Shown here piece after piece: positions 4,570 to 29,414 of a DNA stretch of 64,000 nucleotides. The position numbers were made by a program, and so were the translations under genes. The notes beneath the pieces were generated by a model that worked only from the letters and a program-made list of their open reading frames with translations, made no database searches and was not told the DNA's origin. The stretch comes from Flavicella sediminum (GTDB lineage Bacteria > Bacteroidota > Bacteroidia > Flavobacteriales > Flavobacteriaceae), in contig NZ_VDET01000002.1 of the NCBI RefSeq assembly GCF_006381105.1, positions 837,546-901,545 of the forward strand. The letters run 5' to 3'. Every line of letters starts with the position of its first letter. The first letter of the stretch is position 1.

Positions 4570-6087
4570 TTATTTTTTCTTTTTAGAATTCTTTGTTGCT
4601 TTTTTCCACAAACCTGTAATTCGTTTATAACCAATTTCTTCTCCTTCTTGCATTTTTTTATAGTCTTTAGGCATTGTTTCTTGCAACCATTTTACCACAG
4701 CTGGACCTGTCATAATAGTAGGCTCAAAAACATCGCTTACAGGAACTATTTCTTTATCAAACACAGCTATTTCTTTACGCATTTTTTCTAACACATCTGT
4801 ATATTCTGGATTTGTTGCTAGATTATGTAATTGCTGTGGATCATTTTTCATATGGTACAATTCCTCCTTCGGTTTTGTCGGTTCAAAGAAAGGTTTTTGG
4901 TTTTCGTTTAATTTCCCTTCTTTGTACAATTGACGCATGACATGAACCGCTGGTCTGTAAAACTCCAAATAAGCTTGATGCGCATCGTACGCTAATTCTG
5001 GCTTGTCATTTCGGATATATGACCATTCTCCTGAAGTAATGGATCTAGAATCCTCCATAATTTCATCCCACAAATCACGAGCACCATACACATATTTACG
5101 ATCAAAACCTTTATCAAAAATGGCTTTTCCTGTCATGTACGAAGGCACTTCTATTCCTGCCGCATCAATTATCGTAGCGGTAATATCTGTTGAAGCAACC
5201 ACTTTATCACTTACTTGTCCGGCTTTTATTCCTTTTGGATAATGCATGATAAATGGAATTCTTAGTCCTGGATCTTGTAAATATCCTTTTCCTCTAATAT
5301 TACAACGACCGTTATCTCCAATAAAAATGACAATGGTATTATCCGCCATTCCTTTTTCTTCCAATTCTTTGAAAATCATTCCTACTTCGTCATCCATATA
5401 TTCAACCTGATCTAAATACTTCGCCCAATCCAAACGGATAGCGGGATGATCTGCCATATACTCAGGCAAGGTTAACGTTTTTGGGTTTACAGGGTGCTTT
5501 GATTTCTCTCTAATTTCTGTCCACCAAGGACCTCTATGCGTTACTTTTAACTGAATTTGTGCAAAGAAAGGTTCGTCGGCTTTGGTAAAGGTATTTGTCT
5601 TGTCAAAAAGCCCAAAATTCTCTTTCCCATCCCAAGGACCTAGAGGTGTATGTCTAAAATTGACATCAATTTTTTGACCATAGGTATATACTTTTTCATG
5701 TCCTAAAATTGTTGTGTACCCTGCGTCTCTTAACAATTTTGTAAAAGGTTTGAATTGCGCATCTAAAGGTACATTTCTATTACTTCTATGATGATGCGAA
5801 TTGGTTTTTACTTGGTGCGTACCCACCATCATAGAAGATCGGCTTGGAGAACAAATAGGATTGGTCACAAATGCATTGTTAAATCTTATTCCTTCCGCTG
5901 CCATTTTATTTAAATGTGGTGTTTTCACATTTGGCATACCGTAGCACTCTAAATCGGTACTCATATCTTCTGCCATTAACCAAATAATATTCGGTTTTTT
6001 AGGAGCTTCTTTTTTACTTTCTTGCGACTTGCTTCCACAGCTAATCAGCGTTAAGACTACGGTAACTATACTTATATAATTTTTCAT
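4570..6087 (-). CDS. S1 family sulfatase (heparan N-sulfatase-like subgroup), lipoprotein
   Basis: A 505-residue formylglycine sulfatase. A signal peptide ends in lipobox LISC (Cys17). The catalytic motif is C79-SPSR, which needs conversion of Cys79 to formylglycine by a maturation enzyme not present in this window. N-terminal metal ligands sit in MAEDMS, with later metal site FIGDNGR. The stretch after the motif (GTHQVKTNSHHHR) and the C-terminal DPQQLHNLA are like S1_8 enzymes; that subfamily call is from memory of the motif. It probably removes a sulfate ester from galactan oligosaccharides in the periplasm or at the surface. First of a tight group with the GH2 and esterase genes, and 14 bp after the sulfatase at 6102-7496. 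Confidence 0.88.
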   Translation of the reverse strand: MKNYISIVTVVLTLISCGSKSQESKKEAPKKPNIIWLMAEDMSTDLECYGMPNVKTPHLNKMAAEGIRFNNAFVTNPICSPSRSSMMVGTHQVKTNSHHHRSNRNVPLDAQFKPFTKLLRDAGYTTILGHEKVYTYGQKIDVNFRHTPLGPWDGKENFGLFDKTNTFTKADEPFFAQIQLKVTHRGPWWTEIREKSKHPVNPKTLTLPEYMADHPAIRLDWAKYLDQVEYMDDEVGMIFKELEEKGMADNTIVIFIGDNGRCNIRGKGYLQDPGLRIPFIMHYPKGIKAGQVSDKVVASTDITATIIDAAGIEVPSYMTGKAIFDKGFDRKYVYGARDLWDEIMEDSRSITSGEWSYIRNDKPELAYDAHQAYLEFYRPAVHVMRQLYKEGKLNENQKPFFEPTKPKEELYHMKNDPQQLHNLATNPEYTDVLEKMRKEIAVFDKEIVPVSDVFEPTIMTGPAVVKWLQETMPKDYKKMQEGEEIGYKRITGLWKKATKNSKKKK

Positions 6088-6101: not shown

Positions 6102-7496
6102 TCATTTGAAAACACCTCCTGAAAATGGGAAATGAGGATTTTTCACACTTTCTCTTTTTAAAATTTCATTTGCTTTTTTCACCAACTCAGGATGCGTATC
6201 TGCAACATCATTTGTTTCAAACAAATCTTTTTCCAAATCGTACAGTTCAGTTCTGTATGTATCTCCATAACGCACCGCTTTCCATTTCCCCATTCTTGCT
6301 GCCTGTCGGAAACCTTTAACTGAGGGTCCTTCTTGAATTTCCCAATACAAAAAATCATGTTTCTTTTGAGGCTTTCCTAGCAGTTCTGGCAAAATTGAAA
6401 TTCCATCTGTGCTATCAGGTGCTTTTGTTTCAGCTAGCTCTGCCAAAGTTGGCATGATATCGTAAAAAGCGGCTTGCAAATTTGTAGTTGTTCCTTCTTT
6501 TATTTTCCCTTGCCAGTAAGCAATCAATGGAACTCTAACACCACCTTCATACACATCACGCTTATATCCTTTTAAGCCTCCAGAACTTTTGAAAAACTGA
6601 TAACTATGGTGATTCTCATTGGTAGGACCATTATCGCTAGAAATTAAAATTAAGGTATTTTCTAACTCCCCGTTTTCTTCTAATTTGGTAAACATTCTTT
6701 TAATCTGATCATCCAACATCGTAATTCGTGCGGCATGACGTCTTTCAATTTCGGGCCATTCTTCTAGCTTATCAGCATACAAATCATTTTTACTTAAAAA
6801 GAATTCATGTGCATGTGGAGTTCTATAAGACATGTATAAAAAGAAAGGTTTTTTATCATCCTTTTTATCAAGATAATCCAAGGCAAAATTGGTTCTAAAT
6901 TCATCCAAACATTTATAATTATTGTAATTATAAAAAATAGAATCTTGATTGTTATTTACCCAGTGTACTCTTTCGTCAATTTCTTTTCCGTTTTTATCTT
7001 CTCCCCATTGTTCTTGCACTGCGTAATCAAATCCACGACCTTTGGCCCAAGTAGACACATCTTCTGGCACACCTAAATGCCATTTTCCAATCATGGCCGT
7101 TTGGTAACCCGCACCTTGTAGCACTTCCCCAATGGTTGTTTCTGATTTCTTAAGAGGAACTCGATCCCAAGAATTATGTATAGTCCCTTTATTTCCACGA
7201 ATAGTTACATGTCCGGTATGCAAACCTGTCATTAATACAGCTCGTGACGGAGAACAAACCGAAGTTCCCGCATAAAAATCTGTAAATCGCAATCCTTTTG
7301 AAGCTATCTCATCCAAAAACGGCGTTTTAATAACTTTTTGTCCGTAAGAACCTAATTCACCATAGCCCAAATCATCTGCCAATAAGATGATAATATTGGG
7401 TCTGTCTAATGTTTTTTTTGAAGAAGGCTTAGCTGTTTCTTTATTTCCACAAGCCAATAAGCAAATAACGGCAAGTCCTAAAATAAGTTGTTTCAT
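6102..7496 (-). CDS. S1 family arylsulfatase-like sulfatase, lipoprotein
   Basis: Start chosen at the ATG at 7494-7496 (MKQLILGLAVICLLAC), giving 464 residues with a lipobox at Cys16. A longer frame reaching 7571 would overlap the neighbouring sulfatase and add a basic, non-signal leader, so it is rejected. The catalytic motif is C81-SPSR with the extended signature AVLMTGLHTGH. Metal-binding segments are LLADDLGYG near the N-terminus and ISSDNGP in the middle. The HTGHVTIRGN segment is shared with the sulfatase at 33831-35288, so these two are close paralogues and may act on related sulfate positions. The C-terminal DLEKDLFETNDVA is typical of the family. Co-directional with flanking sulfatases at 14-23 bp spacing. 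Confidence 0.88.
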   Translation of the reverse strand: MKQLILGLAVICLLACGNKETAKPSSKKTLDRPNIIILLADDLGYGELGSYGQKVIKTPFLDEIASKGLRFTDFYAGTSVCSPSRAVLMTGLHTGHVTIRGNKGTIHNSWDRVPLKKSETTIGEVLQGAGYQTAMIGKWHLGVPEDVSTWAKGRGFDYAVQEQWGEDKNGKEIDERVHWVNNNQDSIFYNYNNYKCLDEFRTNFALDYLDKKDDKKPFFLYMSYRTPHAHEFFLSKNDLYADKLEEWPEIERRHAARITMLDDQIKRMFTKLEENGELENTLILISSDNGPTNENHHSYQFFKSSGGLKGYKRDVYEGGVRVPLIAYWQGKIKEGTTTNLQAAFYDIMPTLAELAETKAPDSTDGISILPELLGKPQKKHDFLYWEIQEGPSVKGFRQAARMGKWKAVRYGDTYRTELYDLEKDLFETNDVADTHPELVKKANEILKRESVKNPHFPFSGGVFK

Positions 7497-7519
7497 TTCA
7501 ATTCTTTTATTATGTTGTT

Positions 7520-8872
7520 TTATAAGTTTAGTTGATGAGGACCGTAAGCAGGTACAGCTTCTTTTTCCCATTTTTCCAGATCTTTCTTTAATTTGTTTTC
7601 GACTTTCAATCCCGTTCCAATCAAATTATTCGTTTCGCTTCTATCTTTTACAACATTGTACAATTCATATTTTCCTGAATGGTATTTTATTATTTTAAAA
7701 TCGCCAGAAACAATAGAACAATATTGATCTTCGTAACTTCTAAATCCGAATAAATTTCTTTCCTTGATTTCTTTTCCTTTTAAAAGAGGCAGCAAACTAA
7801 CTCCTTGAATTTGTTTGTCTGTGCATTTTTTACCTGAAGCAATTTCAACAAGGGTTGGAAAAACATCTACCGATTGCACAGGTGTATGACAAACTGTGTT
7901 TGCTTTTGTTACACCAGGATAGTAAATCATAAAAGGCACTCTTGCGCCACCTTCAGCCAAAGTATCTCCTCCTTTTTTACCCCCTCTTAAGGGTGCATTG
8001 GTATAGGCTCCTCCTTGATCTGAAATTACAATAATTACGGTATTATCTGCAATTCCTTTTTCTTCTAAAGCTTTTCGAACACGGCCCACAGATTCGTCCA
8101 TAGCTTCTACCATGGCGTGATGATCTGCATATTTGCCTTCAATTCCTTTGGCATGGTACTTTTTCAACAAATCTTTTCTTCCAACAGAAGGACCATGAAC
8201 AGAATAGTACCAAAACGTTAACATAAAAGGATCTTTTTTATCGTAACCACTGATAAAATCAACAGCTCCATCCGTTAATACATCGGTTAGGTAATCTCCT
8301 TTTTTGTAATTTTTCAAGAAACCATTTGGATCTCCCCCTTTGAAAAACGGAAAGTAGTAACTCTTTGGGTGTCCGTGATCTGTAACACCAAACTCTTCAT
8401 CAAAACCTTGATCTTTTGGATATCTTCCTTTATGACCTAAATGCCATTTTCCAATAAAATAATTGTAATAACCAAATTCTTTTAATTTTTCAGCATAGGT
8501 AACTTCTTCCAAAGGAAGGTAATTAAGTGAAGGCATTTGTACCGGATCTGAAGGCCAAAGTCCATATTTAGCATCTGGTTTTTTAGGATCTAAATGAATA
8601 TGACGTACCATTTGTAAACGAACAGCCTCCTTACCCGTCAACAAAGACAATCTACTAGGACTGCAAGTTGGTGTAGGAATATACGCCCTTTCAAAATCCA
8701 AACTTTCCGTTTTTAACTGGTCTAAATTTGGTGTTTGAAAACTATCATTTCTATAACCTATGTCAGACCAACCATAGTCATCCACAAATAACAATACAAT
8801 ATTTGGCTTGTCTTGAGCGTAAGTTGTAAAGGCCGTAAAAGCTACAATCGCTACTACTAAAATTCTTTTCAT
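7520..8872 (-). CDS. S1 family sulfatase, secreted
   Basis: A 450-residue sulfatase with a Sec signal peptide (MKRILVVAIVAFTAFTTYAQ) and no lipobox. It is therefore probably soluble, unlike its two downstream neighbours. Catalytic motif C70-SPSR followed by LSLLTGKEAVRLQ; metal ligands in LFVDDYGWSD and VISDQGG. The YELYNVVKDRSETNNL segment is the usual C-terminal sulfatase subdomain. It is the first gene after a 195-bp gap, so a promoter driving the 8872-to-900 gene group probably lies in that gap, where an 8-bp inverted repeat is visible (8946-8985). The S1 subfamily is not assigned. Confidence 0.88.
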   Translation of the reverse strand: MKRILVVAIVAFTAFTTYAQDKPNIVLLFVDDYGWSDIGYRNDSFQTPNLDQLKTESLDFERAYIPTPTCSPSRLSLLTGKEAVRLQMVRHIHLDPKKPDAKYGLWPSDPVQMPSLNYLPLEEVTYAEKLKEFGYYNYFIGKWHLGHKGRYPKDQGFDEEFGVTDHGHPKSYYFPFFKGGDPNGFLKNYKKGDYLTDVLTDGAVDFISGYDKKDPFMLTFWYYSVHGPSVGRKDLLKKYHAKGIEGKYADHHAMVEAMDESVGRVRKALEEKGIADNTVIIVISDQGGAYTNAPLRGGKKGGDTLAEGGARVPFMIYYPGVTKANTVCHTPVQSVDVFPTLVEIASGKKCTDKQIQGVSLLPLLKGKEIKERNLFGFRSYEDQYCSIVSGDFKIIKYHSGKYELYNVVKDRSETNNLIGTGLKVENKLKKDLEKWEKEAVPAYGPHQLNL

Positions 8873-9067: not shown

Positions 9068-10981
9068 CTATTTTCCAATGCAAATAATTTCTTTCATGGT
9101 TCTATGATAAATATGTCCGTTGGCATAGGTCATAGAGTTCACCGTCCAAGTTTCTCCTTGTTTCCCTAAATCATTAACAGCGACTAAAGCATTTGCATCT
9201 AAAACATCTGCACTAGCATCAATAACATAAACAAGTCCGATAGCATTGGTAAAAAACACATAATTATTTACCATGGTTGGAGACCCTAAGAAACATTTTT
9301 GAAAACCGTCTCCTCTTGTTCTTGCGTCAAAAGCATGCAATTGTCCTTGTGCATTTAGTCCGTCATTTTTTTGTGCTTGAGCCCAAATATACTTCCCATC
9401 TGCATCAATTTCTTGAGGGACTTCAATATGTTCATTTTTTCCTGTTAAAGTACTATGCCTAGCAATATAGGGTTGGTAACGCACCATAAAAAACAAATCA
9501 TCACCAGCAGAAATATTGCAATGTCTTTGATTTTGTAGATGTTTGATTTCAACATTTTCCTTTAGCACATGTTGTTGTTTTGTTTTATCGAAATTGTATT
9601 GATTTACCTTTGTTAAATTCAATTGAGAAATTAATTTTCCAGTCTGAGTATCAACTGTTAAATGGTCATCTCCACTGTAAAACCAAGAAGCTTTTTTTGA
9701 ATCCCAATGTTGTGTACTTAAAGCACCCCAGCCAGAAATACTGTTTTTTTCTTCTGGTTCCCAACTCCACAGAGCAGTTCCTTGCTTATTTTTTTCTAAA
9801 CTAATCAAACTCAAGCCAACGGGTCTTTCAGGAACACCATGCGGTCCACCTCTACCAATTAAAACTGCTGGCTTTCCTTCAGCGGTTTCCCCAATAATTG
9901 GCGTGTTATAATGTGTTAACGCCTCTTTTGTTACCCAAATTCTTTCCCCTGTAAGCTTGTTGAAAGCATGTAAGTAATTCCAATCAATATTTCTTGTCGA
10001 ATCGCCTCTTACAGGAGGTTCAGTATTCAATATCAAATTTTCAAATAGCATAGAATCAAATTGCTTGTTAAAAGGTTTACCACCCGTGGTTGGTTTCCAT
10101 GTTCGATCCCAAACTGGTGCTCCATCCATTGTAAAACAAGCCATTCCTCCACTTGCATTGATAGCCCAAACATAGGTTCCGTCTGTCATCGGACAAGGGG
10201 TCGTTGCGTCACTAAACCCGTAATTGTACTCACTTGAGATTGTTCCTTTAACCGTTCTTGTCCATGCTATTTGACCTGTATTTGCATTCAAACAAAGCAA
10301 TTGTATATCTGTACTTGCTGCCCCACCCTTCACTGCTTTTTTAAGACTCTCCAAAACTTTATAAGCCGTTCTTAATTCTTCAGACTTATGATGAATGAAG
10401 GTTTTAAGTGCGTTGTTTACATCTGCATAGGCTTTTCCTCTTTTGTCTCTACGCATCATATTTGCTTCAATACTCGGCTTTTCTAGTTCTGAAGCAGCTT
10501 GGTAATGTGCATGTTTTTTCAAAACTTCTTTCCAAATTTTTTCAGGTGTAGCAATAGCTTTTTTTAGTGACTTGTATTTTCGATCTCCTTTTTTTTGCAA
10601 TTTTGCCTCTTCTTTTGCGTAAAGAGCTTCATAGTCGGTTTTAGCCAACTCGAATTTTGCCACTACAGCTGCATGTTTCGGTGAATCTGTTGGAGGGTTG
10701 ATGGTTAAAAATAATTGATCTCCCCAAACAGCAATTCCACTTTGCCCCCCTTCCGGTAAAGTTTGTTTCCATTTGATATTTTCCCCCGTTCTAACGGACC
10801 ATTTTGTAGGAACCTCTAAATTGGTATTAACTTTCCAACTTCCATCAGGACCACCAGACATAGGCCATTGATTTTCACTATCAGCAACTTTGACACTGCT
10901 TTCTTTAGAAAAATTACAAGCCACAAAAAGGATACTTGAGAGCAAACAAATTAGTACGGAATTACTTTTTAATTTCATCAT
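9068..10981 (-). CDS. PQQ-type beta-propeller lipoprotein with helical insertion
   Basis: A 637-residue lipoprotein (lipobox FVAC, Cys22). It starts like planctomycete-type outer-membrane PQQ-like proteins (WPMSGGPDGSWKV). Propeller blades of the 'D/N-A-x-T-G' type follow (LNANTGQIAW, FNKLTGERIWV, VDTQTGKLIS, DASADVLDANAL). A charged, mostly helical insertion (~residues 98-222) interrupts the first blades. Whether PQQ is bound is not clear; many homologues with this fold bind no cofactor. It lies 7 bp from the di-heme peroxidase-like gene and belongs to a redox block with the DUF1552/DUF1592 proteins. Possible roles are sugar dehydrogenase-like oxidation or a structural scaffold. Confident on fold, not on reaction. 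Confidence 0.72.
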   Translation of the reverse strand: MMKLKSNSVLICLLSSILFVACNFSKESSVKVADSENQWPMSGGPDGSWKVNTNLEVPTKWSVRTGENIKWKQTLPEGGQSGIAVWGDQLFLTINPPTDSPKHAAVVAKFELAKTDYEALYAKEEAKLQKKGDRKYKSLKKAIATPEKIWKEVLKKHAHYQAASELEKPSIEANMMRRDKRGKAYADVNNALKTFIHHKSEELRTAYKVLESLKKAVKGGAASTDIQLLCLNANTGQIAWTRTVKGTISSEYNYGFSDATTPCPMTDGTYVWAINASGGMACFTMDGAPVWDRTWKPTTGGKPFNKQFDSMLFENLILNTEPPVRGDSTRNIDWNYLHAFNKLTGERIWVTKEALTHYNTPIIGETAEGKPAVLIGRGGPHGVPERPVGLSLISLEKNKQGTALWSWEPEEKNSISGWGALSTQHWDSKKASWFYSGDDHLTVDTQTGKLISQLNLTKVNQYNFDKTKQQHVLKENVEIKHLQNQRHCNISAGDDLFFMVRYQPYIARHSTLTGKNEHIEVPQEIDADGKYIWAQAQKNDGLNAQGQLHAFDARTRGDGFQKCFLGSPTMVNNYVFFTNAIGLVYVIDASADVLDANALVAVNDLGKQGETWTVNSMTYANGHIYHRTMKEIICIGK

Positions 10982-10988
10982 TATTGGT

Positions 10989-11999
10989 TTAATTGATAAC
11001 TGGTTTAGGTTCTTTTATATATTCTTGCGGAATTTCGCCTGTTAAAGTCTTTAGAAAAAGTTGAATTTTTAAAGCCTCTTCCACGCTAATATCAATTCCT
11101 CTTTCATAGCGTCCCATTTTTTGAATGGCTTTCCATAATTTTTTTGAAGAACTATCGTGAAAATAGGGAGCCGTTTTTTCTACATTTCTTAAAGCAGACA
11201 CTCGGAAAAACATTTTATACATCGGATTTCCATCAATATGGTAATAGCCTAAATCTTTTTGGTTGGGCCAATCGGATACTATGCCAACTTTTTGCAACAT
11301 TTGACCGCCTATATTAGATCCTGTATGACAGGAATAACAACTTTTTGAATTGAACACATGACCACCTTCTATTGCTGCGGAAGACAAAGCGGATAAATCA
11401 CCTTGAATAAATTTATCTATGGGCGCTGGTGTTTTTAATCCGGAAATAAACTGAACCAAAGCATCGATTAAATTTTCAAAACTAATGGCATTTTCACTCA
11501 AATTGTACGCTTTTGAAAATAATTCTTGATACCCTTTTAAGTTTCCAATACGTTCCATTAACAATTCCTTGTCCATTTGCATTTCATGACTACTAGAAAT
11601 ACTTTGTTTTAGCTTTTCTTTTAAGGAATGAATACTACCATCTGCATTGTAAATTGGCAAGGTGTGTACATTGTAAATAGAAGGCACATCTCTAAAAAAA
11701 GAAGTTCCTTTTTGTGCTAAATAATGAGATCCATTGGTGCCATATTTTTTCAAATCGTGACAGCTATTGCATGAAAACCCTTTCGATTTAGACAAACGTT
11801 TGTCGTAGAATAAAGTTTTACCCAAATTTATTGTATGCTTTTCTTTTTCTAAAAAAACAACATCCTTTACAACAGGCTTAAAATAAGGTTGCAATATTTC
11901 ATGTAAATCTTCTGCCTCTTTTTTTAATTCAGATTGTCCAAATCCAAATGAAAAAGAGAGCCCAAATAAAAGACTGAAATAAATTTTATAAAAAGACAT
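10989..11999 (-). CDS. di-heme cytochrome-c peroxidase / MauG-like protein
   Basis: A 336-residue exported protein (signal peptide ending GFGQ) with two c-type heme motifs: CNSCH (Cys77-His81) and CYSCH (Cys221-His225). Segments typical of the bacterial CCP/MauG superfamily are LGKTLFYDKRLSKS before heme 1, RDVPSIYNVHTLPIYNADGS after it, and FRVSALRNVEKTAPYFHD near the C-terminus. Members reduce hydrogen peroxide or carry out long-range oxidations on a partner. It lies 7 bp from the PQQ-like gene and 8 bp from the permease gene, so it belongs to the same transcript. The context suggests electron transfer linked to sugar processing; this is inference. Confidence 0.85.
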   Translation of the reverse strand: MSFYKIYFSLLFGLSFSFGFGQSELKKEAEDLHEILQPYFKPVVKDVVFLEKEKHTINLGKTLFYDKRLSKSKGFSCNSCHDLKKYGTNGSHYLAQKGTSFFRDVPSIYNVHTLPIYNADGSIHSLKEKLKQSISSSHEMQMDKELLMERIGNLKGYQELFSKAYNLSENAISFENLIDALVQFISGLKTPAPIDKFIQGDLSALSSAAIEGGHVFNSKSCYSCHTGSNIGGQMLQKVGIVSDWPNQKDLGYYHIDGNPMYKMFFRVSALRNVEKTAPYFHDSSSKKLWKAIQKMGRYERGIDISVEEALKIQLFLKTLTGEIPQEYIKEPKPVIN

Positions 12000-12007
12000 T
12001 TTATGAG

Positions 12008-13333
12008 TTACGCGACTTTCTTTTTTTGAATAGTTCTAAAGCCATAAGTACCTACTACAAGCATACAAATCATTGGTAAAATAAACGATAAGTTTACTTC
12101 TGGAATATAGCCTAAAAAAGCAATATCATTAAAACCATCACCTCCTAAATCTAAGATTGCCGCTTGAATTGGAGGCATAAAAGCACCACCAACAATGGCC
12201 ATAACCAAACCTGCAGAACCAATTTTTGCTTCATCCCCCATATCTTTTAAGGCAATTCCATAAATTGTTGGAAACATAATAGACATAAATATAGATACAG
12301 ATACTAATGACAGCAATCCTAACATTCCTGGTAATAAAATTGAACCCGCAGCACAAACAGCTCCTGTAAAGCCAAAAATTGCCAATACCTTAGAAGGATT
12401 CATTTTTCTCATCAATCCTGTTCCAATCCATCTTCCTGTTAAAAACAAAATCATGGCAGCAACGTTATAATTTGTAGCTGTAATATCTAATCCGTGGGTT
12501 GCATTTAAATTATCAACATATTGAAAAATAAATGTCCAACACATAATTTGAGACCCTACACAAGCTGCCTGAGCAACCACTCCGCCTAAATAATTTTTAT
12601 TGGCAAATAATTTTGCAAATGAATCAGAAAGACTCATTTTTTCTTCTTGTGGTGTTTTTGGAATTTTAGTAAAAATAATAACGGCCATGATGATCAAAAC
12701 CAAAACCCCCAATGCGATGTACGGAAAACTAATCACACTTAAGTCATTTTCTCTTACTGCTGCCAATTCTTCTGAACCCAAAGCACTATAAGCCTCTGCT
12801 GTATAATCATCCGATCGTAATGCACTCAAAACAAATACTTGAGCAATAATCATTCCTGTTAAAGACCCCACTGGATTAAACGCTTGAGCTAAATTTAAAC
12901 GCTGTGTGGCTGTTCTTTTATCACCCAAAGCTAAAATTAATGGATTTGCGGTTGTTTCTAAAAACGACAATCCACAGGTAATGACCCATAAAGAAATTAA
13001 AAAGAAATTGAAATTTTCAAAGGCGGCAGCAGGATAAAACATAAATGCACCAATAGCATACAAAGACAATCCTAAAATAATACCCGATTTATAACTAAAC
13101 TTTCTAATAAACAAAGCCGCGGGAAGCGCCATAAAAAAATACCCAAAATAAAACGCAGACTGCACCAAAGATGCTTGTAAGTTTGATAATTCTGGCATTA
13201 CCTTTTTAAATGCCGAAACCATAGGATTGGTTAAATCGTTGGCAATACCCCATAATGCAAATAAGGATGTAATGATGATAAATGGGAATAATAATTTTTT
13301 ACTTACAATAGGCGTACTTTCTTGTTGACTCAT
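12008..13333 (-). CDS. MFS sugar:proton symporter, FucP/glucose-galactose permease type
   Basis: A 441-residue protein with 12 predicted membrane helices. It belongs to the fucose/galactose/glucose:H+ symporter group: the N-terminal ANDLTNP segment (Asp33) and SFLETTANP in helix 4 (Glu126) correspond to the proton-coupling Asp and Glu known from E. coli FucP. It probably imports a monosaccharide released by the locus enzymes (galactose or a derivative) across the inner membrane. Being embedded between the DUF1552 gene (82 bp away) and the di-heme cytochrome gene (8 bp) suggests it carries the product of the periplasmic steps. The exact sugar cannot be read from sequence. Confidence 0.87.
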   Translation of the reverse strand: MSQQESTPIVSKKLLFPFIIITSLFALWGIANDLTNPMVSAFKKVMPELSNLQASLVQSAFYFGYFFMALPAALFIRKFSYKSGIILGLSLYAIGAFMFYPAAAFENFNFFLISLWVITCGLSFLETTANPLILALGDKRTATQRLNLAQAFNPVGSLTGMIIAQVFVLSALRSDDYTAEAYSALGSEELAAVRENDLSVISFPYIALGVLVLIIMAVIIFTKIPKTPQEEKMSLSDSFAKLFANKNYLGGVVAQAACVGSQIMCWTFIFQYVDNLNATHGLDITATNYNVAAMILFLTGRWIGTGLMRKMNPSKVLAIFGFTGAVCAAGSILLPGMLGLLSLVSVSIFMSIMFPTIYGIALKDMGDEAKIGSAGLVMAIVGGAFMPPIQAAILDLGGDGFNDIAFLGYIPEVNLSFILPMICMLVVGTYGFRTIQKKKVA

Positions 13334-13415
13334 CTATATTTTATTAGTTGTTGCTACTCTATATTTTACTCACGACAATATATGTCATTTTTACATTTAA
13401 TTACCTTCTATTTAT

Positions 13416-14768
13416 TTAGGACAAAATAGCAGGTAATTTACCTGTACTATCTGAAAAACTATCGCGTTCTACCCCAACTTTATTTAACATGCTTAAAAAC
13501 AAATTAGAAAGGTGTACTTTTTTCGGATCGAATTTTTCATAGGTTCCATGTTGTACGCCCATTTTAGCTCCACCTGCCAATACTAGCGGACAGTTATTTG
13601 CATTGTGAGTAGAACTACAAGCACTTCCGTATAAAACAAGTGTATTGTCTAATAAAGAACCATATTCATCGTGTGTATTTTTCATTCTATCTAAGAAATA
13701 GGCAAATTGTTTGACCAACCACTGATCGTATTTTCCTTGTCGTTCATAATGACCGGGTTTCTTATCATGTGTAATACTATGGTGTCCGCCTAGGTCTAAA
13801 GCAATCTTTGGAAAGGCATCTCCAAACCCCATTCCATCCTCACGCGCCATCATATAGGTCATAACCCTTGTTATATCCGTTTGAAAACCTAAAACCATCA
13901 AATCAATAGTAGACCTTAAATAAGCTTCAGGATCAATGGTTGCATCCACATTTAAATTTAAGGTAGAGGCATCAAAATCTTTTAAAGGAATGTCTAACCA
14001 TTTTTCATTTCGAACCACTTGCTCTTCTACTCTATTCAAAGAAGTCATGTATTCATCTAATTTAGATTTGTCGTTATAGCCCAAACGTTTTTTCAATCGG
14101 TTGCTATCTTCTAAAACCAAATCCACAATTTTTTTACCTTGTTGCAAACTCTTGCGTCTATCAGCAGTACTTCCCCCTCCATTAGGAGAAAAATAACGTT
14201 CAAAAATTTCTCTTTGTCTATGTTCAGAAGGAATTGCTTTCCCTACAGAATCAAAAGATAAAGTAGACGCTCTTGATTTATATCCTACACCACCATCCGT
14301 AGACAATGTTAACGAAGGAATACGAGTATGTTTGCTTAAATGCTGCGCTGCTACTTGATCTACAGAAATACTATTGTTGTATTTATCCCCTCTTAAATCA
14401 CCACCCGTTAGCCAAGTATCTCCAGCAATATGCCCCAACACACTTCTACTATTTGGGTGACTCAATCCTCCTAAGATTGAAATATCATTTCTATAAGCTT
14501 CAAGTGGAGCCAAAGAATTTGTTAATTTATAATTGGCCCCAGCTTGCTCAGGAAACCAATTCCAATCTTTTTCTTTTGTATTCTTAAACCCAGGCATACT
14601 AACACCATTCGGAAAGTACATAAAGCAAAGGCGTTTTGGTGCCGTTGCTACTCCGTTTAACGTGGTTAGTTTTCCCATTCCCATTGCTTCAAGGTAGGGC
14701 AACATACAAGCTGCACCAACCCCCTTGATAAAAGTTCTACGATCTAAATGCCATGATTTTCTACTCAT
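13416..14768 (-). CDS. Tat-exported DUF1552 protein
   Basis: A 450-residue protein with a twin-arginine signal (DRRTFIKGVGAACMLPYLEAM), so it is exported folded. The body matches DUF1552, a family of unknown function common in Planctomycetes and some Bacteroidota and normally encoded beside DUF1592 proteins, as here (23 bp apart). Visible landmarks are LCFMYFPNGVSMPGF, GLSHPN, VLGHIAGDTWLTGG, MMAREDGMGFGDAFP, LGGHHSITHD and LYGSACSSTHNANN. Several conserved His, Asp and Ser clusters would suit a metal or cofactor site. No enzyme activity is established for the family that I know of. Confidence 0.85.
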   Translation of the reverse strand: MSRKSWHLDRRTFIKGVGAACMLPYLEAMGMGKLTTLNGVATAPKRLCFMYFPNGVSMPGFKNTKEKDWNWFPEQAGANYKLTNSLAPLEAYRNDISILGGLSHPNSRSVLGHIAGDTWLTGGDLRGDKYNNSISVDQVAAQHLSKHTRIPSLTLSTDGGVGYKSRASTLSFDSVGKAIPSEHRQREIFERYFSPNGGGSTADRRKSLQQGKKIVDLVLEDSNRLKKRLGYNDKSKLDEYMTSLNRVEEQVVRNEKWLDIPLKDFDASTLNLNVDATIDPEAYLRSTIDLMVLGFQTDITRVMTYMMAREDGMGFGDAFPKIALDLGGHHSITHDKKPGHYERQGKYDQWLVKQFAYFLDRMKNTHDEYGSLLDNTLVLYGSACSSTHNANNCPLVLAGGAKMGVQHGTYEKFDPKKVHLSNLFLSMLNKVGVERDSFSDSTGKLPAILS

Positions 14769-14791
14769 AATCTTTCTATTTAGTTACTTTA

Positions 14792-17700
14792 TTAATTCAA
14801 TTGTCCTTGAAAGGATGGGCTCAAAACAATTTGTTCTAAGACCGTTTGAAATTTATAATTGTCTTTTTTTACATTTTCTACGATTTGCTTCAATTCTTTT
14901 TCATCAGAAAAACTGGTATCTCTACCCAAAGCATAGGCATACAAATGCTCTACCAAAGATTTTGTAAATTCTTCTTTTTTCTTGCTTAGAATATACGATT
15001 TAATTCCCTGAACTCCAATAACTTCAGTCCCGTCAGGAAGTTTTGATTTAGAATCTACAGGTTTTCCTTTCATTTCTTCTCTAAATCGACCTACCGCATC
15101 GTAATTTTCAAAGGCCACTCCGTACGGGTCAATTTTTAAATGACAATCTATACAAGAAGCTTTGTTTCTATGCAATTCTAACTGTTCCTTTAAAGTCATT
15201 TTTTCAAAACCAGGTGTTTCTGGATCCAATTCGGGTACATTGGGTGGTGGTGGTGGTGGCGGATCTCCTAATATTTTTTCCTTTAACCAAACCGCACGTT
15301 TTATAGGATGTGCTTGTACACCATCAGAATGTCCTGTTAAAAAGGCACCTTGCGACAGCAAACCTCCTCTATGTTCTTCAGGCTTTACAGCTACAGGTCT
15401 AAACTGATTTCCTTTGACTCCTGCCACTCCATAAAATTCTGCTAAATTTTGATTTAACATCGCAAAATCAGAATCAATAAAATTCAAAATACTTAAATTT
15501 TCTGCCAATACATGGTGCATAAAATTATAGGTTTCTTCTGCCATATCTTCTTTTACAAACCTTGTAAAATCTGGATATATTTTTTTATTCGTCGTCATAC
15601 TTTTTAAACGATCCACACGCAACCACTCATACGTAAACGCTTTGATCATCTTCCAAATTTTCGGACTTTCAGACATTCTTTTTATTTGGTTTGGTAAATC
15701 TTTTTTCAAACTGGAATGACGTGCTAAATTTGTCAAGGTTTTATCTGGAGGAGAATTCCATAAGAAATAAGACATTTTGGAAGCCAACAAAAATTCGTCA
15801 GTCTCTTTTGCATCTTTCTTTTCTGACTCTAATAAATACAAGAAATTAGGAGAACACAATACCGCCACCAATACTTCCTTAACACTGTCTTCATAACGGT
15901 CAAAATCAGCTCTACCCGCTTTCCAAAAATTCAAATAACGTGTCAGTTCGCCATTTACTAACGGACGGCGATACGCCTTTTCCATAAATTTCTTCAAGAC
16001 CTCAGCCGTATACAATTCTTCGTTGTCCTTGTTAGGCGAATCAAAGAAAATAGCCGTATGACTTTCTGGAGGCCAAACGGGGTGATAAGGTGTTATTAAC
16101 TCCGCAGACTTCAATAAAATTGGAGGGCCATTTTCACCTTTTTGTTTTACCAAGTGGTCATTCCACAAACCAATAATCATGGTATTTGATAACTCATTGG
16201 TTTCATTTAAATCTTTTACTGGCAAAGGCAAGTTTTCTAGCTGCCCTGTAAATTCATAGGTTTTAAAAACACCCGGTGCAGACGTTACTTCTTTACTGGT
16301 ATCAAAAGTTTTATAATCCATTCCATCATCTGTTCTAGAACCTACAAAAGCTCTAATAGAAGGCGTCAAGTTTTCGTATTTTTTCTGATTTTTTGCTGCT
16401 TCAGCCTTTAATTCAGCCGGCAAAGGATTGTCTTCAGAAAGTGGTGTCACTCTAATTTCACTAAACCCAACAAAAAACTTACCGCTAAGCGTAATTGTAT
16501 ACGAGCCTTTTTTTAGCAAACCTAAAGTTACTGGTGTCACAATTTCAGAAGAAGTCGCTAAAGAAGGATCCAATTTCAAACGCTCTTGCACCTTATTAAA
16601 AGATCCGATTTTCATCGCAAAAGAAGGCATGTTTTCTGCGGGCGCATAAGGGTGTACCAAATCTATTTGATAAAAACCTTCCTCTTTTATTTTTAATTTC
16701 AACTTTGCTGTAACAAAGGCATCTGTTTTAGATGCAACTAAAAATTTATCGTCTTTTTTCTGAATATTTTTCTTTTCATAAACATCATCAATAGTTAACA
16801 CAATGGTTTTTTCATTAACGGTTGCTGGTTTGTCTTCACGCAAGCCAATCAAACCTTCTTTAGCAGCCAAGGCATAACCTTTAGAAGCTTGTACACGAAA
16901 CACAAAACTACCAGATGTTGGAAAATTATTCTTTATCAGCATTTTCATATTTGGAGAGGGTCCTTGCCAAGATCTTGGTGGTACATCTTTATGCGGCAAT
17001 GCAGAATACAACATCATTCCATTTTCTTCCACAGAATATCGATCACTTGCAGAACCACGCATTCCTATTCCAATTTTCTTTTTTATTGGATCTACATTTT
17101 GTTTTACATTTCCTTTGCTATCCAACAGTTCAATTAAAAAATCTTCTTTTTTAATGGCCACCGATTGGAAACCACCAAATTCTGCTGCTACTCCTCCTTC
17201 ACCAATTCCTTTTCCAAAAGTTACTTTATAGCTTTTTGATTCAGGTTTCTCTCCAAATACAATTGCTTTGTCTAAAGCTTCTCTGGCTATTTTTTGATAA
17301 TAATCAATATGCAAAGATGAAATTTGTAAAATGTTTCCATTGTTTGTAAAACCCATTTTAGACTTCCCATCATTTGGCAACGTGTATCCAAAATTGATGG
17401 GTAAATTCAACAATTCATTTAGCGAATTTGTGTATTGAGATTTTGTCAAACGACGCGTAACTTTAGTCGCCACACTTCTTTTTGCATCTGCAGCGGCACT
17501 TAATGAATTTGTGATCCAATCTACCACCAGTCTTCGCTCAGCATCAGACATTTGTGGTTTTTTCTTAGGAGGCATTTCACCTGCATTAATTTCATCCAAA
17601 GCAGAGTGCCATTTTTCAGCATCACCACCTGTTTTCATATTCCAATGCAGAATATCTAAACGCATTTCGCCTTTTTGTTTATCTACTCCATGACAACCAA

Positions 17701-18742
17701 AACAATATTTGGCTAAAATTGGTTTTACTTTATTTGTATAATGAATTCCTTCTTTTGAAAGTTTTACTTTTGGCTTCTTTTTTTCAGCTATTGCTAACTG
17801 TAAACGTTCTTTTTTCTTTTTTTCTTGTTTGGCAATTTTCGTTTCTAAAGCCAATAATTTTTGTTCTGGCGTTCTTTTCTCTAAAGAAGTGCTAATCCAC
17901 TCCAATAAATTTTCACGGTCTTGTTCCGTCAACGGATCTTTTTCTTCAGGAGGCATATTTCCTTCCTTTACTTCCTCCCAAACAGCTTCCCATTTTTCAA
18001 GATCGGCAGGATTTGAAAAATCGTAACCAATTACATCCAAACGTAAATCTCCCTTTTGTTTATCTGCGTTATGACACTCAAAACAATTTTTATCTAGCAA
18101 AGGATGAATGGTATCTAAAAAAGCTAGAGTTCTTGGCGCGATAGAATCTTTGGGTTGTGCTTTCATTTTTTCTACCAAAGCTTCAGCTTCGCTTTTTTCA
18201 ACACCAAAAAAAGCTTTCATTGGTGCCGGCATGTCTTTGGTTAAATAATCAGAACCATGTGTTAAAGAGCCTCCAAAATGCCCTGCTACAGAAAGCAGCA
18301 ACACATTGACAAAAAGAATAAATTTATAACCGTAAACAAATTTATCTGATTTTGAAGAAGTCCAAGTACGTAAAACCAACAGCCATACACTTACCAATGC
18401 CGTTGCCCAACCTAACCATTTGTGCAAAAATAATTTTTCAGGATTGTATCCTCCTGATGCGGCAAGAAAAAAACCTAAAACAACCGTAGGCAAAACACTA
18501 ATAACGGTAAACCATAACAATATAGTAGTAGCTCCTTCAACTTGAAGTTTCGGTTTGAGAGTGCCAATAATTTCCAAAACCAAAACACCCAATAAAGTAC
18601 CTATAGGAATGTGTAATAATAGGGGATGGAAATTTCCGAAAAACAAAATGATGGAATCATTTTTTTCTGGTACAATGCTAACAAAGGCTAAGCCCAAAAG
18701 GGACAAGGTAAAAACAAGTGCTATAGATAGGACTAATTTCAT
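14792..18742 (-). CDS. DUF1592/DUF1588/DUF1585 multi-domain c-type cytochrome with N-terminal membrane domain
   Basis: A 1316-residue protein. Residues 1-165 form about five membrane helices with His39, His44, His107, His155 and His162 in or next to helices, like the DUF2231-type domain fused to such proteins. Two planctomycete-type cytochrome domains follow: CFECH (220-224) and CFGCH (347-351), each with a KQKG(D/E)(L/M)RLD tail. Then come the DUF1587/DUF1592/DUF1595-like core, the proline run before NVPELDPETPG (DUF1588), and a third heme motif CIDCH (1197-1201) with DUF1585 at the C-terminus. The periplasmic bulk is presumably an electron-transfer or oxidation module anchored in the inner membrane. 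Paired with the DUF1552 gene. The family's reaction is unknown. Confidence 0.87.
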   Translation of the reverse strand: MKLVLSIALVFTLSLLGLAFVSIVPEKNDSIILFFGNFHPLLLHIPIGTLLGVLVLEIIGTLKPKLQVEGATTILLWFTVISVLPTVVLGFFLAASGGYNPEKLFLHKWLGWATALVSVWLLVLRTWTSSKSDKFVYGYKFILFVNVLLLSVAGHFGGSLTHGSDYLTKDMPAPMKAFFGVEKSEAEALVEKMKAQPKDSIAPRTLAFLDTIHPLLDKNCFECHNADKQKGDLRLDVIGYDFSNPADLEKWEAVWEEVKEGNMPPEEKDPLTEQDRENLLEWISTSLEKRTPEQKLLALETKIAKQEKKKKERLQLAIAEKKKPKVKLSKEGIHYTNKVKPILAKYCFGCHGVDKQKGEMRLDILHWNMKTGGDAEKWHSALDEINAGEMPPKKKPQMSDAERRLVVDWITNSLSAAADAKRSVATKVTRRLTKSQYTNSLNELLNLPINFGYTLPNDGKSKMGFTNNGNILQISSLHIDYYQKIAREALDKAIVFGEKPESKSYKVTFGKGIGEGGVAAEFGGFQSVAIKKEDFLIELLDSKGNVKQNVDPIKKKIGIGMRGSASDRYSVEENGMMLYSALPHKDVPPRSWQGPSPNMKMLIKNNFPTSGSFVFRVQASKGYALAAKEGLIGLREDKPATVNEKTIVLTIDDVYEKKNIQKKDDKFLVASKTDAFVTAKLKLKIKEEGFYQIDLVHPYAPAENMPSFAMKIGSFNKVQERLKLDPSLATSSEIVTPVTLGLLKKGSYTITLSGKFFVGFSEIRVTPLSEDNPLPAELKAEAAKNQKKYENLTPSIRAFVGSRTDDGMDYKTFDTSKEVTSAPGVFKTYEFTGQLENLPLPVKDLNETNELSNTMIIGLWNDHLVKQKGENGPPILLKSAELITPYHPVWPPESHTAIFFDSPNKDNEELYTAEVLKKFMEKAYRRPLVNGELTRYLNFWKAGRADFDRYEDSVKEVLVAVLCSPNFLYLLESEKKDAKETDEFLLASKMSYFLWNSPPDKTLTNLARHSSLKKDLPNQIKRMSESPKIWKMIKAFTYEWLRVDRLKSMTTNKKIYPDFTRFVKEDMAEETYNFMHHVLAENLSILNFIDSDFAMLNQNLAEFYGVAGVKGNQFRPVAVKPEEHRGGLLSQGAFLTGHSDGVQAHPIKRAVWLKEKILGDPPPPPPPNVPELDPETPGFEKMTLKEQLELHRNKASCIDCHLKIDPYGVAFENYDAVGRFREEMKGKPVDSKSKLPDGTEVIGVQGIKSYILSKKKEEFTKSLVEHLYAYALGRDTSFSDEKELKQIVENVKKDNYKFQTVLEQIVLSPSFQGQLN

Positions 18743-18905: not shown

Positions 18906-21900
18906 TTAAAGGCTTTTTCGATATTCTGTAGGCGTAACCGAATATTTCTTTTTAAACAATTCTCTGAAATATTTTACATCATTGTACCCCAACATAAAGG
19001 TTATTTCGTTAAATGAATAGCTGCTTTTTGAAAGTAACTCTGCCGCCTTTGTCAGCTTTACAGAAGTAATTAATTCATTAACGGTCATTCCTGTTAACTG
19101 GGTTGTTTTTTTATACAAGGAACTTTTAGACATGTTCATTTTAGCAGTAAGTATAGAAATGTCTAATTTATTTTCAATAAAATTCTCCTCAATCACATGC
19201 ATTAAATTTTTCAAAAACAAGGTTCCTGAAGATTCAATATCTGTGGTTTGTGGGGTTAAATTTATCTCTCTTTGAAACCATTCTTTTGTTTGATTGATGG
19301 TTGCCAATTGATTTTTTATTTTCAACAACAAACTCTCCGTTTTAAACGGCTTGGTAATATAATCATTGACACCGCTATCCAATACTTCAATTTCATTTTT
19401 ACCCGAAGCGGTAATAATGATTGTCGGAATATGAGAAGTTCGAATATCTTCTTTAATTTTTTTACACAATTCCAAACCATTTAGTTCAGGCATCATTAAA
19501 TCGGTCAACACAATATCAGGCATTTTATTTAACACTATTTCCAAAGCTCTTTTTCCATTATTGGCTACGAATAATTTGTACTTACTTGCCAATTCATAGG
19601 TCAAATATTTCCGTAATTCATCATCGTCTTCTGCTATTAAAATACTGTGTTGAAACTCTTTTTTCTCTTCAATTTTATCAAATGTACCCTCTACTTTTTC
19701 TTCCTCACTTGGCAATGATATCAAAACCTTCGTTCCTTTATTTTGTTCACTTTCTATCACAACAGACCCTTCATGGGCTTCTATATATTCTTTAACAATA
19801 GACAAACCAATTCCTTGTCCTTGTACTTCTGAGTCGGACTGAAAGAATCTTGAAAATATCTTTTTAAGTTTGTCTCTTCGAATGCCTTTTCCCGTATCTT
19901 CAATAATTAGTTTCACGGATTGGTTTTCCTTTTCATGAATAATTTTCACGATGATTTTACCTCCGTTGGGTGTATTTTTAAAGGAGTTGGATATAATATT
20001 AAAAAAGACTCTTTCAATTTTTTCTTTATCTATATACAAAGGCAAATTTTCACTGTCTACATCAAAAATCAAATCAATATTTTTTTGATCGGCTTGAAAT
20101 TTAAAGTTATGAACCAATGTGCGAATAAAACGAACAAATTCTATTTTTTGAATGTTTAAAGTCAACTCTCCTGTATGAATGGTACTGAAATTCAATACTT
20201 GATTGACCAATTTCACCAGTCTATTGGCGTTGTTAGAAGCCGTTTCTAATAAAAACTGTTTCTCTTCAGTAGGAAGTGTATTCCGTAATATTTTTTCCAA
20301 GGGTTCTTTTACCATGGTCAATGGCGTTTTCAAATCGTGCGAAATATTGGTAAAGAATTTAATTTTCTCTTGGTCTGTTTCTCTTAATTTTTTCTCCAAA
20401 TTCAACTGCAAATTCATTGCTTTTTTACGTGTTTGTCGAATAATTGTAAATCGGATACTTAAAAACAAAGAAGCAGCCACCAAAGTTCCACTTAGAAAAA
20501 CAAACCACCAAGTTAGCCAAAACGGAGGATTGATAAAAAACACCAAGCGTTGAATTTCAGAATTCCATTTACCATCTTCATTGGTACATTGCAGCAGCAG
20601 TTGGTAATTCCCGACCGCTAAATTATTTAAAGTAAAGGTGGGTGAATTGACAAAATTTACTATCCAACCTTTTTCAGAATTTTCAAGTTTGTATCTGTAT
20701 TTTACTGCGCTAGGAGAAATATAATTGGGCACAGAAATTTGGAAGGTTAAATTGTTTTGATAATGATTTAAATGCCTAAGATCCTTATTTGTTTTTCCAC
20801 TAACTCCGTTCACCTCAATATCTTCAATAAAAACCTTGTATTTGTAGGTACTTGGGTTGAAGGTTTTAGGATTGAAGGAAACCAGACCGTTGTTTAGTCC
20901 AAAATACAATTCACCTTCTTTAGAATAATAAGCCGACCTACCCGTAATTCTATTCGACAAGAAGCCAAATCCTTTGTAGTAGGTAGAAAAATTCTCAGAA
21001 TTTTGATCAAATCTATTGACACCGTTATGTGTACCAAACCACAAAACATCTTCATTTTCAGCTACAATACTAGTTACATAATTATTTGAAAGTCCTTGAT
21101 GTGTGGTGTAATTTTTTTGAACGATGTATTCCTTTTTTTCTTTATTATAACTTAATTTACTAATTCCAGAAGCCGTTGCTGCCCAAACAAACTCACCAGA
21201 CTTATACATCATTTGAACGGTGTTACTTCCCAAGTTTTTAGACCTATTGATGTTTTTAACCCCAATTGATTCATGATTTTCATCCAAAAGAATTTGAAAC
21301 ATTCCTTTATGAATGGCATTGGTTAAAATCACATTATTTTCGGCGTCGTAACAAATAAAATCAACAGTACTCCAACCTATAACATTATCAAATCGTGGCT
21401 CCTTTTCAGAAAAATCTACACGAAACAAACCGCCATAAGTACCAATCCAATAAATATTTTCTTTGGTTCTAACCACAGCATTCACTTGGTGTTTTTTTTC
21501 ACCTATTGGTTGAATTTGTGTGATTGTGTTTTCTTTTGAAGCAGTAAAATCCAATTGAAACAAACCTTGTTTGGCACCTATATAAAATAAGGAATCAGAA
21601 ATTTTATTGATAAATCTTATTTCCTTCTTAGGCAAAAAGACTTCACGTTCGCCTGTCTCAAAATTTTCTCTTAGCAAACCATCTTCAACTGTACCAATAA
21701 GCATAGCTCCTGAATAATCTTGAGAAATAACTTTTCTATTTTTTTGGGTGAATGTTTCATGAAAATTGGAATCGTAAAATTGATTTCCACGGAAATTTAT
21801 TTTAATCAAATCTTTGCTAGTTACAAGCCATAAATTATCTTGTTGATCTATAAAAGATTCGTAATTCATAACAAACCCTCTATTCATATGCAATTTATGA

Positions 21901-29272: not shown

Positions 29273-29414
29273 TTTAAAATATGTTTTAGGCAAAGTAAAG
29301 CAACTTTATTTCCCAATCTGTATGTCTACATATGTACAAAGTCTTTCAGCGTAAGAAAATTAATCAAAAAAAGACTCGCGTTTCTAGGCTAAAGTTTAGA
29401 AAAAAAAGAAACAA

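Follow-up and report, generated by a model that had tools for sequence, protein, structure and literature searches.

A conserved FucP-linked DUF1592/DUF1552 gene block as a possible periplasmic redox module in a carrageenan locus of Flavicella sediminum

A 64,000-nucleotide stretch of the Flavicella sediminum genome (contig NZ_VDET01000002.1, positions 837,546 to 901,545; hereafter the window, meaning this whole stretch) carries a five-gene block that joins a multi-heme DUF1592-type cytochrome and its DUF1552 partner to a FucP-type sugar symporter, a cytochrome c peroxidase (CCP)-like protein and a propeller-like protein. Sugar-linked periplasmic redox chemistry appears to be the best reading of this block, and it is regarded here, tentatively and with somewhat less than even confidence, as a conserved FucP-coupled periplasmic redox module within an accessory carrageenan locus. 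The original prediction had described five co-directional genes with gaps of 23, 82, 8 and 7 bp, a layout that was borne out, together with the family assignments, by the open reading frames (ORFs), Pfam and NCBIfam. The five ORFs lie on the minus strand and are transcribed in the following order:

14792..18742, minus strand: DUF1592-type multi-heme membrane cytochrome of 1316 aa with PSD3, PSD5, PSD4, PSCyt3 and PSD2, first gene of the block (Pfam, AF2 model)
13416..14768, minus strand: DUF1552 (HXXSHH) protein with twin-Arg R10 R11 and a putative alkaline-phosphatase-superfamily-like fold (Pfam, alignment, poor model)
12008..13333, minus strand: FucP-type major facilitator superfamily sugar:H+ symporter (TIGR00885, 497.9 bits)
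10989..11999, minus strand: optional module member resembling di-heme cytochrome c peroxidases (CCP_MauG)
9068..10981, minus strand: optional module member that resembles a beta-propeller, has a lipobox-like N-terminus and matches PQQ_2 only weakly (Pfam)

Comparison of gene order across genomes showed that the DUF1592-DUF1552 pair and the FucP-type symporter constitute one recurring unit in Bacteroidota, in which the peroxidase and the propeller are optional. DUF1552 was rare among Flavobacteriaceae, being present in 17 of 397 genomes with one match each (window included). The DUF1592 gene adjoined it in 17/17 of these genomes and was followed by the FucP-type gene in 15/17, so that the permease, which had been proposed as part of the block, proved to be a conserved component of it; the propeller was found in the operon in 10/17 genomes and the CCP gene in 6/17. 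A wider scan of named genomes yielded 80 loci, 79 of them with a DUF1552 ORF. Among these 79, the DUF1592 gene was placed directly before DUF1552 in 77, 25 had a FucP-family gene at position +1 or +2, and the propeller and the CCP gene were found in 15 and 8, respectively. Inside the FucP-bearing modules, 67 of the 74 gaps were shorter than 50 bp or were overlaps. These two surveys overlap, several genomes of the first being the same records as named loci of the second (e.g. G334 is L052), and the ORFs of the GC-rich planctomycete loci came from a simple caller, shadow ORFs included. In a phylum-wide sample of 395 genomes, two besides the window's own had DUF1552 matches, both weak and below the cut-off. 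Because gene order and orientation recur in other genera, the arrangement of the block represents more than chance.

The distribution of the symporter followed the phylogeny of DUF1552. A tree was inferred from 78 DUF1552 proteins, corresponding to 76 loci, the window and the relative G051 (L119, in which no DUF1552 ORF was called, and L098, L111 and L116, with no clean ORF, were left out), and the FucP label required 3 changes on it vs 22.5 when shuffled. Apart from one outlying proteobacterial metagenome-assembled genome (MAG), the FucP rows were grouped within one starred clade of 38 rows, 12 of which are uncultured Bacteroidota without FucP; no planctomycete row was placed inside the FucP clade. 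The pair itself, described earlier as mainly planctomycete, is not confined to Planctomycetes, as loci were found in other groups; three planctomycete genomes had 4, 4 (one below the cut-off) and 11 DUF1552 matches. After the DUF1592-DUF1552 pair of two Planctomycetota MAGs (L080 and L089), genes for a ribose-type ABC binding protein and permease were observed. A sugar ABC importer as the general planctomycete partner was discarded, since only these two planctomycete loci had such genes.

The third protein of the block matched the fucP model TIGR00885 with 497.9 bits (cut-off 280.4) and remained below the cut-off of a second fucP model, NF007524 (278.3 of 427 bits). The position of the symporter was kept even where the symporter itself had been replaced by divergent paralogues, with an identity of 36% to the window FucP in L053, L054 and L058, which belong to Flaviramulus and Gaetbulibacter and carry the divergent paralogue at the same module position. 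Moreover, the module FucP of L055 (Seonamhaeicola) was 51% identical to that of the window, and two close Wenyingzhuangia with nearly identical DUF1552 proteins differed in their FucP (61% vs 85% identity to the window's). In L060 (Algibacter amylolyticus), the module fucP was split in two ORFs of 164 and 277 aa.

The genomic surroundings of the block gave a second line of evidence. As had been predicted, the block lies between the regulator of the locus, a hybrid two-component system (HTCS) protein that precedes it, and the sulfatases, which come after it and are followed by a GH2 gene:

18906..22772, minus strand: HTCS regulator, directly upstream of the block and module-adjacent in several relatives too
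7520..8872, minus strand: S1 sulfatase downstream of the block, with block synteny in G051 and Wenyingzhuangia heitensis
6102..7571, minus strand: S1 sulfatase, with block synteny in G051 and Wenyingzhuangia heitensis
4570..6087, minus strand: S1 sulfatase, with block synteny in G051 and Wenyingzhuangia heitensis
2207..4567, minus strand: GH2 protein, with a 68% relative after the sulfatases in G051
30774..33815, minus strand: GH2 protein, with 67% identical relatives that immediately precede the module in two Tamlana genomes

The complete series of HTCS gene, five-gene block, three sulfatases and GH2 gene was kept in G051, and the HTCS gene, the block and the three sulfatases in W. heitensis. 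The HTCS gene adjoined the module in the window, G051, G334 and G180, and in 5 of the 79 loci of the wider scan, G334 and G180 being among these five. In Ochrovirga pacifica (L061), the HTCS gene and the module were present with no sulfatase relatives in the stretch covered. Relatives of the window sulfatase, GH2, GH27 and HTCS genes were located within 10 kb in 13/24 Bacteroidota FucP loci vs 5/27 loci without FucP (Fisher p 0.01, uncorrected for kinship), a comparison that leaves out planctomycete and proteobacterial loci and loci without a clean ORF, and that counts as sugar genes the BLAST relatives of those window genes only. Sugar genes outside this count included a GH99-like gene next to the L056 module, and GH30 and SusD genes in L065. 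Similarly, sulfatases accounted for 11/91 of the nearest flanking genes at FucP loci vs at most 2/98 at loci without FucP (Fisher with 2, p 0.008); the former count covers 91 of 96 genes, all but four from L054, which closely copies L053, and the first one of L058, and the latter comes from a list limited to 25 families. Because sulfatase, glycosidase and HTCS relatives are commoner around the FucP-bearing module, and pairs without FucP lie near housekeeping genes, the sugar link would belong to that module and not clearly to the pair as such.

The surroundings of the block in the window are, by their predicted gene content, a carrageenan locus. In agreement with the sulfated-galactan locus with GH82 proposed at the outset, a GH82 gene was identified, and a GH167 gene was also present:

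29415..30761, minus strand: GH82 iota-carrageenase-like protein, context (PDB 3lmw/1h80, E ~1e-66)
26933..29293, minus strand: predicted GH167-like beta-neocarrabiose-releasing enzyme, context (PDB 6ptm, E 1.5e-159; 9whd)

The product of 26933-29293 had also been considered as a GH82 enzyme, which was ruled out by its match to PDB 6ptm, an entry that we take to be BovGH167. GH82, GH167 or both, in company with S1 sulfatases, are marks of a carrageenan utilisation locus, and all three are present here, as are GH2, GH27 and the HTCS regulator. GH167 releases beta-neocarrabiose (Hettle et al. 2019, PMC6923384). Pfam was run on 28 of the 38 window ORFs; the four that it left without a match include GH82 and GH167, and no SusD match was obtained among the 28, the SusC/SusD pair (SusCD) being located in a second locus. 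This second carrageenan-type locus, of 20 kb, lies about 0.45 Mb away (G000:C12:1352500-1372499, L182) and contains SusCD, GH2, two GH127, 2-keto-3-deoxy-galactonokinase (DGOK), a KDPG-type aldolase and an AraC regulator. Neither DauA nor DauB was recognised within these 20 kb, and the D-anhydrogalactose route is therefore only partly shown there. Given this second locus, the usual end products are probably processed by another route, and the window locus with its block is probably accessory to carrageenan use. The oxidative branch of galactan catabolism that had been envisaged would consequently be an addition and not the route itself, and a replacement of cytosolic D-anhydrogalactose oxidation by the block was considered unlikely for the same reason. 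DGOK was found in one (G180) of five other module-bearing genomes and not in the remaining four.

In the available parts of its description, the carrageenan regulon of Zobellia galactanivorans (Ficko-Blean et al. 2017, PMC5698469) shares S1 sulfatases, sugar/H+ symporters and iota-carrageenase/GH82 with the window, and its polysaccharide utilisation locus resembles the second locus of the host in GH127, DGOK and aldolase. The word cytochrome is absent from the main text of that paper as available, which describes no such redox block. At G000:C5:133281-179110, eight distant relatives (33-35% identity) of the window GH82-like protein form a cluster that also contains a GH127 gene.

The DUF1592 protein was characterized by means of Pfam, motif inspection and structure prediction. 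PSD3, PSD5, PSD4, PSCyt3 and PSD2 were found in one chain, each above its Pfam cut-off, along with PSCyt1 and a DUF2231 N-terminus, and the three CXXCH motifs read from the sequence agree with the tri-heme count given earlier, as the two of the CCP-like protein do with its di-heme count. PSD3/DUF1587 corresponds to residues 430-494, with a c-type heme domain ahead and a further CXXCH region after it. The remaining regions are arranged as follows:

18260..18631, minus strand: DUF2231-like membrane domain, residues 38-161 (Pfam, alignment)
17942..18085, minus strand: PSCyt1 stretch, residues 220-267, part of the c-type cytochrome domain at the N-terminus (CFECH), which is restricted to the 3-heme form
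17513..17725, minus strand: second c-type cytochrome domain, residues 340-410, with CFGCH
16427..16825, minus strand: CBM6/CBM35-like domain, residues 640-772, by fold match only (VIA, Foldseek)
14810..16006, minus strand: PSD5-PSD4-PSCyt3-PSD2 part with the third CXXCH, residues 913-1311

In the N-terminal membrane region, His 39, 44, 107, 155 and 162 (the last just past the DUF2231-like domain) were identical in 17/17 sequences, and these five invariant residues therefore suggest b-type heme or quinone chemistry. The CXXCH of the CFGCH domain (C18, C21 and H22 of the core) was invariant across 51 aligned relatives. The AF2 model of the core (residues 330-1316, 51 sequences) was good (pLDDT 89.2, pTM 0.88), and on this model the protein contains a predicted CBM6/35-like domain, a type of carbohydrate-binding module (CBM): residues 640-772 matched the CBM35 2w47 with a VIA Z of 13.2 and a root-mean-square deviation (rmsd) of 2.4 over 123 residues, and other fold matches included the CBM6 domains of an agarase and of a laminarinase from Zobellia. 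No CBM match was found in the protein by Pfam. The list of fold matches for the core was filled by the CBM-like domain and so does not cover the C-terminal heme part; the sequence profile gave nothing convincing against solved structures, with no solved X183 domain among the matches listed.

This domain plan recalls Cbp2D of Cellvibrio japonicus (PMC8981238, PMC12542752), which, in the portions of those papers available, consists of an X183 cytochrome, X132, DUF1587, a further CXXCH and a CBM, and so shares a c-type heme domain, DUF1587 and a further CXXCH region with the window protein, whose CBM-like domain would take the place of the CBM; the Teredinibacter proteins TERTU_2913/3803 (PMC10916295) have the same plan, likewise in a polysaccharide context. 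Going by a figure legend on Cbp2D, the rest of the DUF1592 protein would be the equivalent of X132. Cbp2D matters for growth on insoluble cellulose, which according to its authors may be cut by a new mechanism (PMC8981238, PMC12542752). The block might accordingly be organized around a polysaccharide-bound electron donor of this kind, in which the DUF1592 protein feeds an oxidative cleaving enzyme, or cleaves the glycan itself with its partner, and FucP merely imports the product. The DUF1587, c-heme and CBM-like domains of the window protein speak for this possibility, which is nevertheless rather unlikely. Cbp2D and the Teredinibacter proteins, the latter with a fused PQQ-dehydrogenase-like domain, are described as secreted or likely so, whereas the window protein has a membrane-like N-terminus. 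Cbp2D moreover carries CBM2 and X158/YceI, and no DUF1552 or FucP partner is mentioned for it or for the Teredinibacter proteins in the text seen. No X158/YceI match was obtained in the five block proteins (Pfam, E 0.001), the matches listed for DUF1592 included no solved X183, and Pfam showed no lytic polysaccharide monooxygenase (LPMO) in the 28 of 38 window ORFs that it covered, a search that did not extend to other parts of the genome.

The DUF1552 protein matched DUF1552/HXXSHH with 262.7 bits in Pfam, and R10 and R11 (the twin-Arg), P24, R46, G55, H113, D137, H330, H334 and H388 were invariant across 42 diverse members. The matches listed for its structure model, 50 from Foldseek and 50 from VIA, were without exception sulfatases, nucleotide pyrophosphatases, autotaxins and their kin, which we take to belong to the alkaline-phosphatase (AP) superfamily; the comparison with ENPP7 gave a VIA Z of 11.2 and an rmsd of 3.8 over 194 residues for a model of pLDDT 51.9. 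The profile of the 42 proteins aligned 'LLDNTLVLYGS' with 'ADNTVI' of the window sulfatases (hhalign P 2.5e-4). The sequence profile found nothing convincing among solved structures, PF00884 was not matched and the C-x-P-x-R sulfatase motif was absent, with S103-H-P-N-S-R108 at the position read as its equivalent. Because the fold matches, the invariant residues and the missing C-x-P-x-R combine in this way, the protein is suggested to be a metalloprotein exported by twin-arginine translocation (Tat), with an AP-type scaffold and a centre unlike that of sulfatases, and on this poor model it looks more like a member of a metallo-hydrolase superfamily than a redox protein.

Such a scaffold raises the possibility that the pair is mainly hydrolytic, DUF1552 being a divergent phosphatase- or sulfatase-like enzyme that strips a group from the sugar, and DUF1592 a carbohydrate-binding partner that holds it at the membrane, with regulatory hemes. 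The AP-superfamily-like fold, albeit from a poor model, and the sulfatase-rich neighbourhood favor this explanation, which we nonetheless judge distinctly unlikely: C-x-P-x-R is lacking, S103 and N54, read as nucleophile and metal ligand, were kept in only 33 and 35 of the 42 proteins, unlike the invariant H113, D137, H330, H334 and H388, and the invariant heme site of the partner would still need an explanation.

The CCP-like protein scored 119.8 bits against CCP_MauG (cut-off 25.6) and carries two CXXCH motifs, CNSCH and CYSCH. Its identity as MauG or MbnH was rejected by NCBIfam (114.4 of 443.85 and 111.1 of 362.85 bits, respectively), and it resembles the bacterial di-heme cytochrome c peroxidase PDB 1iqc (157.9 bits, two CXXCH). 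The Met before Gly of the peroxidases was kept in 10/10 module proteins, whereas the Trp that precedes Asp-Gly in 1iqc and 6qkn, presumably the residue between the hemes, was Ala, Val or Thr in 10/10. Among Bacteroidota FucP loci, CCP genes were found only with the 3-heme form of DUF1592 (8/12 vs 0/12). The propeller, in turn, had been predicted as a protein of the pyrroloquinoline quinone (PQQ) type and is better called PQQ-like, its PQQ_2 match being weak and limited to one short stretch (33.6 bits, cut-off 27.6).

A PQQ-dependent sugar dehydrogenase, in which the propeller oxidises the sugar and electrons pass to the CCP and DUF1592 hemes, would agree with the PQQ_2 match and with the presence of the propeller in the operon in 10/17 genomes, and is very improbable. 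PQQ dehydrogenases have solved structures, and a profile of 10 propellers gave no match to solved structures at E 0.01; NCBIfam gave no match either, and the identification of the propeller as a PQQ enzyme was thus not supported. Moreover, the module often occurs without it (25 loci with FucP and 15 with a propeller among the 79). The gene pqqC was found in 0/17 genomes, a result that is uninformative since the control search gave no match either. In L063, an uncultured Flavobacteriaceae, an altronate/galactarate dehydratase-like gene and a short-chain dehydrogenase gene (14680-17136) directly follow the propeller, a pair that we take to resemble an oxidative fucose-type pathway.

In the sugar-linked redox reading, sulfatases and glycosidases would release small sugars in the periplasm, and the DUF1592 protein would hold the glycan by its CBM-like domain and pass electrons between its c-hemes and the quinone pool via the His-rich membrane domain. 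Catalysis would fall to the Tat-exported DUF1552 metalloprotein, which would either oxidise the sugar or strip from it, by oxidation, a substituent left by ordinary hydrolases, and FucP would import the product. The CCP-like protein could deal with H2O2 or donate electrons to the additional heme domain, and the propeller may act as a lipid-anchored helper. In its full form, with DUF1592 and DUF1552 as a new class of periplasmic sugar-processing oxidoreductase that combines a Tat-exported AP-scaffold metalloenzyme with a quinone-linked, glycan-binding multi-heme cytochrome and delivers the sugar to FucP, this proposal should be taken as improbable. The link of the pair to a sugar importer is real, and the carrageenan-specific role and oxidation before import remain suggestions.

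Several observations weigh against sugar-linked redox chemistry. No FucP gene follows the pair in 51 of the 78 tree rows, although its absence cannot be judged in L094, L099, L110 and L113, where the stretch ends within about 0.5 kb of DUF1552. Where the pair lacks FucP, its neighbours include nirB-like, glutathione-synthetase-like or MurB genes, and even a FucP-bearing locus, L069, lies beside Rnf/Nqr and ApbE genes. Synteny with sugar genes, on which the original prediction was to be judged, held in part only: the module lies with sulfatases and HTCS in several genera, but 11 of the 24 Bacteroidota FucP loci had no relatives of the window sulfatase, GH2, GH27 and HTCS genes within 10 kb, and such relatives were present in only 5 of the 27 loci without FucP. 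Many loci are close kin, and the p-values therefore overstate their independence; likewise, the association of CCP with the 3-heme form is confounded, because that form is one clade. The same genome holds the second carrageenan-type locus with GH127, DGOK and aldolase. On the structural side, the DUF1552 model was poor (pLDDT 51.9, 17 sequences), none of its Foldseek matches reached E 0.001, the hhalign probability for its alignment with sulfatases was 43%, and proteins not concerned with carbohydrates can also have CBM-like folds, the matches listed for residues 640-772 including Cry toxins.

As an alternative, the pair may serve electron transfer or the stress response in the periplasm at large and merely travel along with sugar loci, its linkage to FucP in Bacteroidota being historical. 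The rows without FucP and the unrelated contexts of such pairs speak for it, and a table of stress-regulated genes of Rhodopirellula baltica, in the part of the source available, lists a DUF1552 gene (PMC2754498). This explanation is a minority possibility to be taken seriously. It is opposed by the retention of FucP by position through replacement with paralogues, the greater proximity of sulfatase, glycosidase and HTCS relatives to FucP loci, the HTCS linkage and the CBM-like domain in the DUF1592 core.

The nearest precedent for a sugar-linked redox pair is found in freshwater Verrucomicrobia, where, in the passages available, He et al. (2017, PMC5615132) described PSCyt3 genes next to a family of unknown genes: cytochromes of the same PSCyt/PSD kind, with a conserved neighbour, frequent sulfatase neighbours, CBMs in some and a proposed carbohydrate role, the reaction being likewise unassigned. 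The neighbour family is not named in those passages, and DUF1552 is counted in that paper according to its search listing. The flavobacterial module differs in that its cytochrome is fused to a His-rich membrane region and in that its host carries a carrageenan locus, and the available text of He et al. describes neither a FucP symporter nor a CCP-like protein or propeller operon. The PSCyt/PSD cytochromes were named in 2004 (reference in PMC5615132); with their partner genes they are numerous in Planctomycetes and Verrucomicrobia, and no reaction was reported for them in the literature covered. No report of a FucP-linked DUF1592/DUF1552 operon was found in the open-licence literature, as far as available, searched for DUF1592/DUF1552, PSCyt/PSD, carrageenan-peroxidase and FucP. 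If the sugar-linked redox reading is true, it would provide a reaction for a pair of genes that recurs in Planctomycetes, in Bacteroidota and probably also in Verrucomicrobia. The single copy in flavobacteria, tied to one symporter and one regulator, makes the question open to genetic testing, and the fold leads, namely the AP-like DUF1552 with its His4/Asp set and the CBM6/35-like domain of DUF1592, point to metal, glycan binding and sugar-dependent heme reduction.

Other features of the window were also recorded. The promoter motif TTTG/TAnnTTTG gave 4 matches on one strand and 2 on the other, vs about 2 per strand in shuffled sequence, none of them in the gap before the block. The ORFs 24063-25190 (375 aa) and 900-2174 (424 aa) had no Pfam or NCBIfam match, and the former had no solved relative at E 0.01. 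The GC content of the block was 35.5% vs 34.1% for the window, and this closeness gives no sign of recent transfer. The ORFs of two sulfatases, 6102-7571 and 7520-8872, share 52 bp (7520-7571) in different frames, and the start of the downstream one may have been called too early.

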